From contig CALMAN010000110.1 in assembly GCA_937859835.1 (NCBI GenBank), forward strand, positions 36,899 through 81,582: 44,684 nt of DNA, in the 5' to 3' direction. The DNA is from an uncultured Acidipila sp. Its GTDB lineage: Bacteria > Acidobacteriota > Terriglobia > Terriglobales > Acidobacteriaceae. The translations under genes and the position numbers were made by a program. Position 1 is the first letter of the stretch, and the number at the start of each line of letters is the position of its first letter. Below the pieces are notes generated by a model. The model was given only the letters and a program-made list of their open reading frames with translations. It did not search any database and had not been told where the DNA came from. Shown here piece by piece: positions 1,304-4,363 of this stretch.

Positions 1304-3448
1304 CTACTGCTTCGGCTTGGCGCCCGCTTCCAGCAGCGCCGTACCGACGCTGGGCGTGCCGTAGCCAGTAACAGAGTCCCAGCCCTCGGTGAGAACCAGC
1401 GACAAGTCCGTCCCAAAGGTGAGCAGCGAATAGTTCTCGCCAAAGATACCGGTATTGGTCGGCACCAACGCGCTGATGAACTGCGTCGCGCCGAACAAGG
1501 GCGGCACCAGGCCGGCGGCTGAAAAGACGTTGGTTCCGCTTCCATACGAGTAGTTGTAGGTAGTGGTTGCCGTCACATTGTCGGGCCCTTCAATCGGCAG
1601 CACGTCGGCGACAAGAGAGCCCTGTGTTGCTGCCAGGTAGGGCGCAGCCTGGCCTAGCGGGGCCCCGGCGTAGTCGTTGATCACCGCCCAGATGCCCGAA
1701 AAGATCGCGGACGCCAGACCGGTACCGCCCGAAACGCTCAGGCTTTGGTAGCTGGGCGTCCCTGTTGTGGCCGGGACGGTGAGGACGTACTCGGCTCCTG
1801 TGTTCGGGTCGGCGAGCGCCGCGATGTCGGGCAGCAGGCGAGCTGTACCGGGGAGGTTCGCCTGGTAGCCGGGCTTGGGGAAGAAGGCGCTTGGACCCCC
1901 GCCGGAGCCCGCCATAAACGTTGCGAGCGGCTGGATCGTGTACCCCGCGCGAGCATTGCCGACCGGCCCGGATGCAGTGCCCCAGCCGGTGGTAAAGGCA
2001 GCATCGCTGGTTGGAGAAATCGCGATGGTGGTTCCCCCGACGGCCGTGGCGAAGGGCGAATCCGCCGGCGCGCTTACCTCTGTCGGGCTGAAGCTGTAGG
2101 TGTAGTTGCTGCCCGTGTTGGGAAAGAAAACATCCGGGTCTGAGTAGTCGCCCTGGTCGCCGCTGGCGAAGTTCAGGGCGATTCCCTCGGCAGCGCCCAT
2201 CTCGATGATCTCGTTCCAGACTGCCAGCGAGGGTGCGCCCTCCATCGATTCAGGCTCCGCGAACCCGCCGGAGATGATGTTGCCCAGGTGGTTGGTGATG
2301 GCATACAGGGTTGCGGCCTGCAACTCCTCGGTATCCGCAGAGAACGCGTTGAGCAGCACGAGATCTGCCCCGGGAGCCGTGGCGTGGGCCCACTGGAGGG
2401 CAGCGCCGGTTTCGGCCGCCCAGGGGTCCGCCAGGGGGACGGAGTCCGCGCCGAGCTGCGCAGGCGCCGTGGCACTGGGCGCCTCGGTGCCGTAGGGCGC
2501 GACCTCCTGGAAGTTGCCGGAGGTGATTGCCGGCAGAGCAAACAGGCTGCTGAAGGTGCTGAGTTCAGCCTGCGCAGAAGGGTACGCGCCCGCGTTGATA
2601 AAGACGATTGTCTGCCCCGCGCCGGTGTATCCCAGGCCAAAAGCCACATCCAGGCCGTATACCTTTTGCAGCTGGGCAGGGGTGTAGGCACAGGCCGGCT
2701 GCCCATCCGTGGCCGCGGTACCGCCGCTCGCGCTGTAGACCAGGCCGTTGTAGGTCGCCGTGGAGAAGGAATCGCTGAAGAAAAGTGTTTGCGGGTAGGA
2801 GAAGCACTCGCTGGTGAACGCGGCCGTGTCGAAGGCACTGGCAGGCAGGAAGCCGGCTGCGTGGCCGGGCGCGGCGTTCCGTGGGCGCGTCCCCGCGGGC
2901 CGGGGCTGCATGCTGTTGAGCCCGGCCAGGTGCTGCACCAGCCCGGCGGCGGCGCCACCCAGTTGTGGTTGGCGGGTGCTGGTCCGCACCAGCTTGCCCC
3001 CCACCGTGTACAGGTTGATCTGTGTCCCAAACGCGCTTTCCACGTCCGAAGTTTTGCCGGTGAACCGGACGGAAAGGTTGAGCGGATCCGCCGACACCAC
3101 CGAAAGATTGTGTGCCTTCAGCTCCGCCTGTACCGCGGCCATTTCGGCGGCGGTGGGCGCGTACTGCCCGAGGTCCGCGGCGGTGAGCCAGTGATGAAAG
3201 CTGGGCGAACCGGGTGTGTACAGCGCCTGCACGCGCGCGTCGAGCGCCCCACGGGTGTGCAGGGAAAGCCATGCCGTCAGCGTCAAGGGGGCAGACGGGT
3301 TTTCCTGCCCTGCCCCTGTGCCCTTGCGCAGAATGCCCGGCGCGATGTGCGCGTCCACGGACTGCGCAAGGGTCGCGCCGGCGGAGCACAGGGCAAGGGA
3401 AGCGGCGAGTACGCGATGTTTGGAACCAAGGTGGAGTGCGTGTTTCAT
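1304..3448 (-). CDS. secreted S53 family (sedolisin/pro-kumamolisin) protein, probably catalytically inactive
   Basis: Signal peptide MKHALHLGSKHRVLAASLALCSAGATLAQS, pro-kumamolisin activation domain (SPSFHHWLTAADLGQYAPTAAEM...), S53 core (AETGAALQWAHATAPGADL, FASGDQGD, SGGTGLASAIFSGIWAVIND, GWDSVTGYGTP). ORF track start 3481; ATG at 3448 preferred. Confidence 0.9.
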   Translation of the reverse strand: MKHALHLGSKHRVLAASLALCSAGATLAQSVDAHIAPGILRKGTGAGQENPSAPLTLTAWLSLHTRGALDARVQALYTPGSPSFHHWLTAADLGQYAPTAAEMAAVQAELKAHNLSVVSADPLNLSVRFTGKTSDVESAFGTQINLYTVGGKLVRTSTRQPQLGGAAAGLVQHLAGLNSMQPRPAGTRPRNAAPGHAAGFLPASAFDTAAFTSECFSYPQTLFFSDSFSTATYNGLVYSASGGTAATDGQPACAYTPAQLQKVYGLDVAFGLGYTGAGQTIVFINAGAYPSAQAELSTFSSLFALPAITSGNFQEVAPYGTEAPSATAPAQLGADSVPLADPWAAETGAALQWAHATAPGADLVLLNAFSADTEELQAATLYAITNHLGNIISGGFAEPESMEGAPSLAVWNEIIEMGAAEGIALNFASGDQGDYSDPDVFFPNTGSNYTYSFSPTEVSAPADSPFATAVGGTTIAISPTSDAAFTTGWGTASGPVGNARAGYTIQPLATFMAGSGGGPSAFFPKPGYQANLPGTARLLPDIAALADPNTGAEYVLTVPATTGTPSYQSLSVSGGTGLASAIFSGIWAVINDYAGAPLGQAAPYLAATQGSLVADVLPIEGPDNVTATTTYNYSYGSGTNVFSAAGLVPPLFGATQFISALVPTNTGIFGENYSLLTFGTDLSLVLTEGWDSVTGYGTPSVGTALLEAGAKPKQ

Positions 3449-3550
3449 GATCTTCCTTTCATGGCATGCGACGAGGGACAAAGACGTGCAGACCGCGACG
3501 GAGCAAAGGAGCGAAGTGCGGCAGGCCGCGTGCGGGCAAGCGGCAGCACC

Positions 3551-3601
3551 ATGCAGGCGTCGTGCAGGTGTTGTGCAGGCTTCGAGCAGACGTTGAGCAC
3601 G
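3551..3601 (-). promoter_or_regulatory. five phased 11-nt direct repeats upstream of the S53 gene (response-regulator-type operator candidate)
   Basis: Minus-strand reading CGTGCTC-AACG / TCTGCTC-GAAG / CCTGCAC-AACA / CCTGCAC-GACG / CCTGCAT; exact 11-nt register, ~105 nt upstream of the S53 ATG. Confidence 0.55.
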
Positions 3602-3736
3602 TGGGCGCTCTTTGGGCGCGTTTTTCGAATCGTGGAAAGCTTACACCTCCCGCTCCACGCTGCACATCCGGCCACACCGGCTCCGATGGCCGGCGGCACG
3701 CTCCCCAGCACGGCGGCCCGCTAGAATGGGGCGAGG

Positions 3737-4363
3737 ATGATCGCCCACCTGCGCGGCGCACTTGTGTTCAAAACACCCGGCAGCTGCATCGTTGCATGCG
3801 CCGGCGTGGGCTACGAGGTTGCCATCTCGATCCCGACCTATTCGGGCCTGCCCGAGCCTGCTCCGGGGCGGAGCGTGGGCAGGGAAGGGCCCGAGGTGAG
3901 CCTCCACATCTACACGCAAGTGCGCGAAGACACGCTGGCCTTGTACGGGTTTCTGGAGCATGCGGAGAAACGGCTTTTTGAGCGCCTGATCACGGTGTCC
4001 GGGGTGGGGCCGCGGCTCGCGCTTACCATCCTGTCCGGGCTCTCGCCCGCGGAAACCATTCACGCCATCCGCGCGCAGGATCACGCGATGCTGACCCGCA
4101 TCCCCGGGGTGGGCAAGCGGCTGGCCGAGCGCCTGGCTGTGGAGCTGAAGGAGAAGCTCGACGACCTGGCGGCCCCGGTTGCCTCCTCGTCCAGCCCGGC
4201 CCGGACCGTGCCCGCGCAGGACGACGTTCTGTCCGCGCTCGTCAACCTTGGCTACGGGCGGCCCGCGGCGCAAAAGGCGCTCGAAACTGCTGTTACCCGC
4301 GACCCCGAGGCAGGCGCGCAGTTTGATACGCTGTTTCGCGCCGCGCTGCAGCTGATCCGCTAG
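3737..4363 (+). CDS. ruvA: Holliday junction branch migration protein RuvA
   Basis: MIAHLRGALVFKTPGSCIVACAGVGYEV... TLALYGFLEHAEKRLFERLITVSGVGPRLALTILSG... ITRIPGVGKRLAERLAVELKEKL: RuvA OB fold and HhH motifs. Confidence 0.97.
   Translation: MIAHLRGALVFKTPGSCIVACAGVGYEVAISIPTYSGLPEPAPGRSVGREGPEVSLHIYTQVREDTLALYGFLEHAEKRLFERLITVSGVGPRLALTILSGLSPAETIHAIRAQDHAMLTRIPGVGKRLAERLAVELKEKLDDLAAPVASSSSPARTVPAQDDVLSALVNLGYGRPAAQKALETAVTRDPEAGAQFDTLFRAALQLIR

Follow-up and report, generated by a model that had tools for sequence, protein, structure and literature searches.

In the window, that is, the whole stretch of 44,684 nucleotides analyzed here, we identified a gene that in all likelihood encodes a secreted, catalytically dead homologue of S53 zymogens, an inactive peptidase, and that is probably maintained by selection. 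The sequence-only reading of this DNA had proposed a pseudoprotease with a retained non-proteolytic role, and our results support this proposal: the losses are specific to the gene and one paralogue in its genome, they concern the active site and the substrate cleft, and the reading frame is under strong purifying selection. Pseudoproteases of the subtilase clan such as CspC and CspA regulate or sense, and an S53 example appears to be new as judged from the open-access literature searched, in which we found no description of an S53 or sedolisin pseudoprotease.

The gene and its predicted fold

The gene is read on the minus strand in a single uninterrupted frame, from the ATG at 3448 to the stop at 1304, and its product has 714 amino acids (Table 1). 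By eye, the predicted signal peptide reads MKHALHLGSKHR-VLAASLALCSAGATLA and ends before a Q. The long undisrupted frame, the signal peptide, and the zymogen layout described in the sequence-only reading were thereby recovered, the prodomain by its match to PF09286. The S53 catalytic domain of the window protein scored 17.5 bits against the general subtilase model, which is below the cut-off of 21.8, and a search of solved structures with the window protein alone gave no match. A profile built from eight members of the subfamily matches kumamolisin, sedolisin, and TPP1, with pro-kumamolisin (1t1e) at the top (E 6.6e-52). Both conserved cysteines (C215 and C253) are present. A single-sequence AlphaFold2 model of the window protein reached a pLDDT of 30.8; addition of 13 S53 rows from viral contigs gave a model with a pLDDT of 47.8 and a pTM of 0.57, suited for fold recognition only, whose best 15 fold matches in the PDB are all kumamolisin or sedolisin. 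This low-confidence model supports an S53 fold and is too weak for superposition of the active site. Antisense to the gene, a 478-codon open frame is found at window positions 2288-3724 on the plus strand, which is probably a by-product of high GC content.

Table 1 Features of the S53 homologue in the window and the basis on which each was assigned.
Feature	Position	Strand	State or remark	Basis
S53 (sedolisin/kumamolisin) family pseudoprotease gene, putative	1304..3448	-	714 codons plus stop	ORF, profile search, alignment
Ribosome-binding-like sequence, AAAGGAAG	3452..3459	-	3 nt upstream of the ATG at 3448	by eye
Sec-type signal peptide, residues 1-28, predicted	3365..3448	-		by eye
Pro-kumamolisin activation domain (PF09286), residues 47-179	2912..3310	-		61.6 bits, cut-off 23.5
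Glu346, catalytic Glu of E-x3-D	2411..2413	-	retained	alignment and profile
Ala350, in place of catalytic Asp	2399..2401	-	lost; Gly in paralogue C84	alignment and profile
Gly395, in place of invariant Ser of the S-x-S-x-G substrate-cleft motif	2264..2266	-	lost	alignment and profile
Asp431, oxyanion Asp	2156..2158	-	retained	alignment and profile
Longer segment past the oxyanion loop, residues 437-453	2090..2140	-	common to window protein and dead C84 only	
Gly577, in place of catalytic Ser nucleophile	1718..1720	-	lost; also Gly in C84	alignment
Ala581, in place of conserved Pro of GTSxxxP	1706..1708	-	lost; also Ala in C84	alignment
Asp615-Val616, first half of calcium site	1601..1606	-	retained	alignment and profile
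LLTFG, residues 675-679	1412..1426	-	not the calcium site	alignment and profile
Gly689-Trp690-Asp691, second half of calcium site	1376..1384	-	retained	alignment and profile

Catalytic and calcium-binding residues

Residue equivalences were derived from the subfamily profile aligned to the solved kumamolisin and from an alignment of 85 sequences of relatives, and both were consistent. In the profile alignment, the E-x3-D motif, the GGTS nucleophile loop, the D-I-T, and the GWDPCTG of kumamolisin fall opposite the corresponding positions of the window protein. What an active S53 enzyme requires is only partly there: E346 and D431 are present, while the catalytic Asp (A350) and the Ser nucleophile (G577, plus A581 for the Pro) are missing. 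The codons that the sequence-only reading had assigned to the retained Glu and oxyanion Asp and to the exchanges of Asp to Ala, Ser to Gly, and the following Pro to Ala are exact. The sequence alignment places no other Ser or Asp at the active site. That reading had missed the loss of the cleft Ser (S395 to G) as well as the other dead copy that this genome carries, described below. In the S-x-S-x-G cleft motif, the window protein has SGGFA where homologues read SNSYG, and Gly395 immediately precedes the residue that matches Trp129 of kumamolisin in the profile alignment.

These exchanges stand out against the rest of the protein subfamily. Every one of 77 intact relatives carries D in the Asp column and every one of 76 carries S in the Ser column, and the full Glu/Asp/Asp/Ser set was found in all subfamily relatives checked (76-77 per column), with the paralogue C84 as the sole exception. 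Among the intact members, 36 columns are invariant; the window protein keeps 32 of them and lacks D295 (which is E), D350, S395, and S577. Three of the four losses fall into five active-site columns (hypergeometric 0.005, with S395 added after its loss had been seen; 0.053 with the four catalytic residues alone). As expected of a pseudoprotease, catalytic residues, here D and S, are thus gone from a fold that is otherwise conserved in 32 of 36 columns.

The calcium site is preserved. In TPPI, the calcium ligands are D517, V518, G539, G541, and D543 (PMC2914745), and the D-(V/I) ... G-W-D pattern is found in the window protein with both Asp residues in place (alignment and profile). The sequence-only reading had taken LLTFG for an altered calcium site, which is incorrect: alignment and profile put the site at D615-V616 and G689-W690-D691, which rules LLTFG out, and the latter lies in a subfamily-specific segment in which aligned homologues read S/TFGTD.

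A second dead copy and a live sister in the same genome

The genome contains six loci with an S53 prodomain. One of these, on contig C84, encodes a paralogue with 54-55% identity to the window protein; in this paralogue, Asp is replaced by Gly, Ser by Gly, and Pro by Ala, and the same cleft Ser is lost. The insertion at residues 437-453 occurs in the window protein and in C84 and in none of 74 intact members. In the maximum-likelihood tree, the window gene and C84 group together (support 99) and are joined by the intact C104 as their sister (support 100); next comes C92 along with its counterpart in one other genome of the genus. C104 (L041:3030-5099) has the same architecture as the window protein, is 54% identical to it over the full length, and keeps Glu/Asp/Asp/Ser, so that it is catalytically intact by motif. 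Because the dead pair shares the losses, the insertion, and a clade with intact C104 as its sister, catalysis was most likely lost once, after duplication.

A search of overlapping draws, with 398 genomes from the family, 398 from the order, 396 from the phylum, and two from the genus, gave no close relatives of the dead pair, which across these draws is confined to a single genome. C104 is located on another contig, forms no operon with the window gene, and shares no upstream similarity with its paralogues; common upstream regulation of the paralogues was discarded on this basis. The DP.TG linker motif is absent in the dead pair and present in the nearest intact relatives; as a marker of the pair we give it little weight, since it occurs in 37 of 74 intact members overall. 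Shortly past its active-site motif, C84 carries a 10-N scaffold gap (L042:4512-4521, genome G000), and some 20 residues are missing immediately ahead of it, so that the assembly of C84 is doubtful there; the Asp-to-Gly exchange of C84 is distant from the gap. A match to the S53 prodomain with an internal TGA, located in a different genome of the family (G018, C1:3227787-3228254), may represent a decayed S53 gene. In G064 (L072:3555-7022, compared with window positions 1304-4363), an intact S53 gene adjoins ruvA as the window gene does, but it is found across ruvA from the position seen in the window and has other neighbors.

Prodomain conservation and a possible regulatory role

When set against the catalytic domain, the prodomain of the dead pair shows higher conservation than that of each of 74 intact relatives. 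The window protein and C104 are 71% identical in the prodomain and 50% in the catalytic domain, a ratio of 1.42 (0.71 vs. 0.50); the ratio is 1.29 between the window protein and C84 and 1.41 between C84 and C104. For 2354 intact pairs that have diverged to a similar degree, the median ratio is 0.83, the prodomain being the less conserved of the two domains, and the highest value is 1.27; the pairs are not independent, and the comparison is a ranking rather than a formal test. Averaged over the same 73 intact partners, the ratio is 0.996 for the window protein, 0.930 for C84, and 0.884 for C104, with an intact maximum of 0.925. At four-fold silent sites, matches are mildly raised in the prodomain (0.55 and 0.58) compared to the catalytic domain (0.41 and 0.43). 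Because silent sites of the prodomain match only slightly more than catalytic ones, recent gene conversion is not the main cause of the signal, with older conversion being possible; the signal could also partly reflect faster evolution of the catalytic domain or such an old conversion. The dead pair's prodomain conservation suggests a role exerted through this domain. As a separate observation, silent sites of the catalytic domain (L041, L042) match at 0.63 between C84 and C104 and at 0.41-0.43 with the window gene, which may likewise point to an old gene conversion; unlike these silent sites, which are closest between C84 and C104, the amino-acid sequences place C84 with the window gene.

As the best overall explanation, we tentatively propose a dead S53 zymogen that arose by duplication, was kept by selection, and regulates through its prodomain. 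The scenario would start with the duplication of an active, C104-type S53 ancestor, after which one of the copies would have lost its catalytic Asp and its nucleophilic Ser, together with the Pro behind that Ser and the Ser of the S-x-S-x-G cleft motif. This dead copy would have gained the short insertion beside the oxyanion loop and later given rise to the window gene and C84. Alignment, tree, and codon model indicate that selection has since kept the signal peptide, the prodomain, the calcium site, and the subtilase core. Because Ser and Asp are absent, no auto-processing is expected, and an uncleaved pro-form would persist unless another protease cuts it. The prodomain of the window protein might then bind the catalytic domain of C104, for which it could serve as an inhibitor, chaperone, or buffer while being carried by the dead domain.

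This last step, in which the dead protein would act through its prodomain on its active paralogue, as a partner or decoy inhibitor of C104, is doubtful when taken alone, and the choice among binding, inhibitory, and scaffolding roles is inferential. The position of C104 on another contig, outside any operon with the window gene, and the restriction of the dead pair to one genome speak against it. It ranks before the binding of an unrelated ligand, which in turn ranks before slow decay. The TPPI prosegment is both inhibitor and chaperone of its own enzyme (PMC6278154, PMC2914745). In CspC, a pseudoprotease of family S8, Gly likewise replaces the catalytic Ser, and the prodomain stays uncleaved (PMC6636752). 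A regulatory partner of C104 is favored on the grounds of this parallel and because S53 prosegments inhibit their cognate enzymes and help them to fold. The live sister and the second dead copy in one genome make prodomain regulation apart from catalysis directly testable. That the pair stands for a family of secreted S53 pseudo-zymogens, which arose by duplication in one bacterial lineage, regulates live acid proteases in trans via the conserved prodomain, and would be the S53 equivalent of the Csp pseudoproteases, is a rather unlikely generalization.

Alternatively, the protein might bind peptides or another ligand in a remodeled cleft, for example in scavenging, sensing, or adhesion, without any link to the active paralogue. 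We consider this unlikely. The subtilase core, the calcium site, C215, and C253 are kept, and both the cleft motif and the loop past the oxyanion Asp are remodeled in both dead copies, a pattern that would fit selection for a new surface. However, the substrate-binding motif is partly lost rather than kept, and the most conserved domain is the prodomain, which covers the catalytic domain in S53 zymogens.

Constraint on the reading frame

Synonymous sites were saturated for standard pairwise dN/dS estimators, and for this reason a codon model with three branches (window gene, C84, and C104; 529 codons) was used. The estimated omega was 0.09 for the window gene, 0.097 for C84, and 0.05 for C104, values that are rough with synonymous sites near saturation. 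Setting omega to 1 costs 19.2 log units on the window-gene branch (2dlnL 38.5, p 6e-10) and 17.8 log units on the C84 branch (p 2e-9), while one shared omega for the three branches was not rejected (p 0.28). Despite the rough omegas, neutrality after the loss of catalysis is clearly rejected under this codon model, and the dN/dS comparison that the sequence-only reading had suggested speaks for purifying selection after the loss, as would be expected of a selectively maintained pseudoprotease, and disfavors recent decay.

These data bear on the possibility that the gene is a decaying duplicate, which lost catalysis and then constraint, and whose intact frame merely reflects the short time since the loss. 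The catalytic domain has indeed evolved faster than that of C104, as seen from branch lengths and from mean identity to intact members (0.387 vs. 0.423). Nevertheless, we regard decay as improbable: omega on the branch after the loss is low and neutrality is rejected, 32 of the 36 invariant columns are kept, and drift sufficient for the amino-acid changes would be expected to produce about 6 stop-creating hits, of which none is seen.

Even less probable is a peptidase with an altered mechanism, for example with Ser573 or Thr576 as nucleophile and Glu346 as base. Glu346 and the oxyanion Asp431 are kept, and Ser573 (SGGTG) is found in both dead copies and is uncommon among intact members. Ser573 is, however, four residues away from the nucleophile position, Thr576 also occurs in intact members and hence is not new, and the catalytic Asp and Ser have disappeared jointly with the Pro behind the nucleophile and the Ser of the cleft. 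Finally, errors in sequencing or assembly could have given an ordinary S53 protease the look of a dead one, a view for which the gap speaks in that it leaves C84 as an imperfect copy; this can be practically dismissed for the window gene: it is gap-free, its four changes (D, S, Pro, and cleft Ser) span about 700 nt, and the same changes recur at a second locus that is only 54% identical in protein, so that, while the orthologous group carries the intact nucleophile, which the sequence-only reading had wanted checked, two independent copies on two contigs share the losses and thereby exclude such an error.

Comparison with other proteases and pseudoproteases

Peptidase databases recognize inactive homologues as a class, and pseudoproteases of clan SB are known in family S8. 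Like the S53 enzymes kumamolisin, kumamolisin-As, sedolisin, and TPP1, the window protein consists of a prodomain and a catalytic domain of the subtilase fold and can be aligned with them through E-x3-D, the oxyanion Asp, the nucleophile loop, and the calcium site. It differs from them in its longer loop past the oxyanion Asp and in four replacements, which affect the catalytic Asp and Ser, the Pro behind that Ser, and the Ser of the cleft.

The best parallel is CspC. CspC and CspA of Clostridioides difficile (clan SB, S8) are, like the window protein, bacterial pseudoproteases of the subtilase fold whose relatives include an active copy. Unlike the window protein, they derive from the Asp/His/Ser type of S8, have a jelly-roll domain, and act in spore germination, and no link by sequence or context connects them to it. 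Regulatory roles have been shown for iRhoms, which are protease homologues without catalytic residues (PMC3149277, PMC6426788). The iRhoms and pseudo-orthocaspases resemble the window protein in being protease homologues that lack catalytic residues, and differ from it in having unrelated folds, iRhoms being membrane proteins.

One survey recorded S53 enzymes in almost every acidobacterial genome that it covered (PMC5900883), and these enzymes go along with an acidophilic lifestyle (PMC6411800). The host of the window gene is probably an acidobacterium. Surveys of secreted peptidases would count the window protein as an acid peptidase, although, judging from its residues, it very probably cuts nothing.

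S53 genes with the catalytic motifs kept also occur on IMG/VR viral contigs (L127-L137, L147, L148, L152, and L155). Several of the encoded proteins have lipoprotein-like N-termini, and L137 encodes a protein of 1570 amino acids in which an N-terminal S53 domain precedes long non-peptidase stretches, resembling a phage structural protein.
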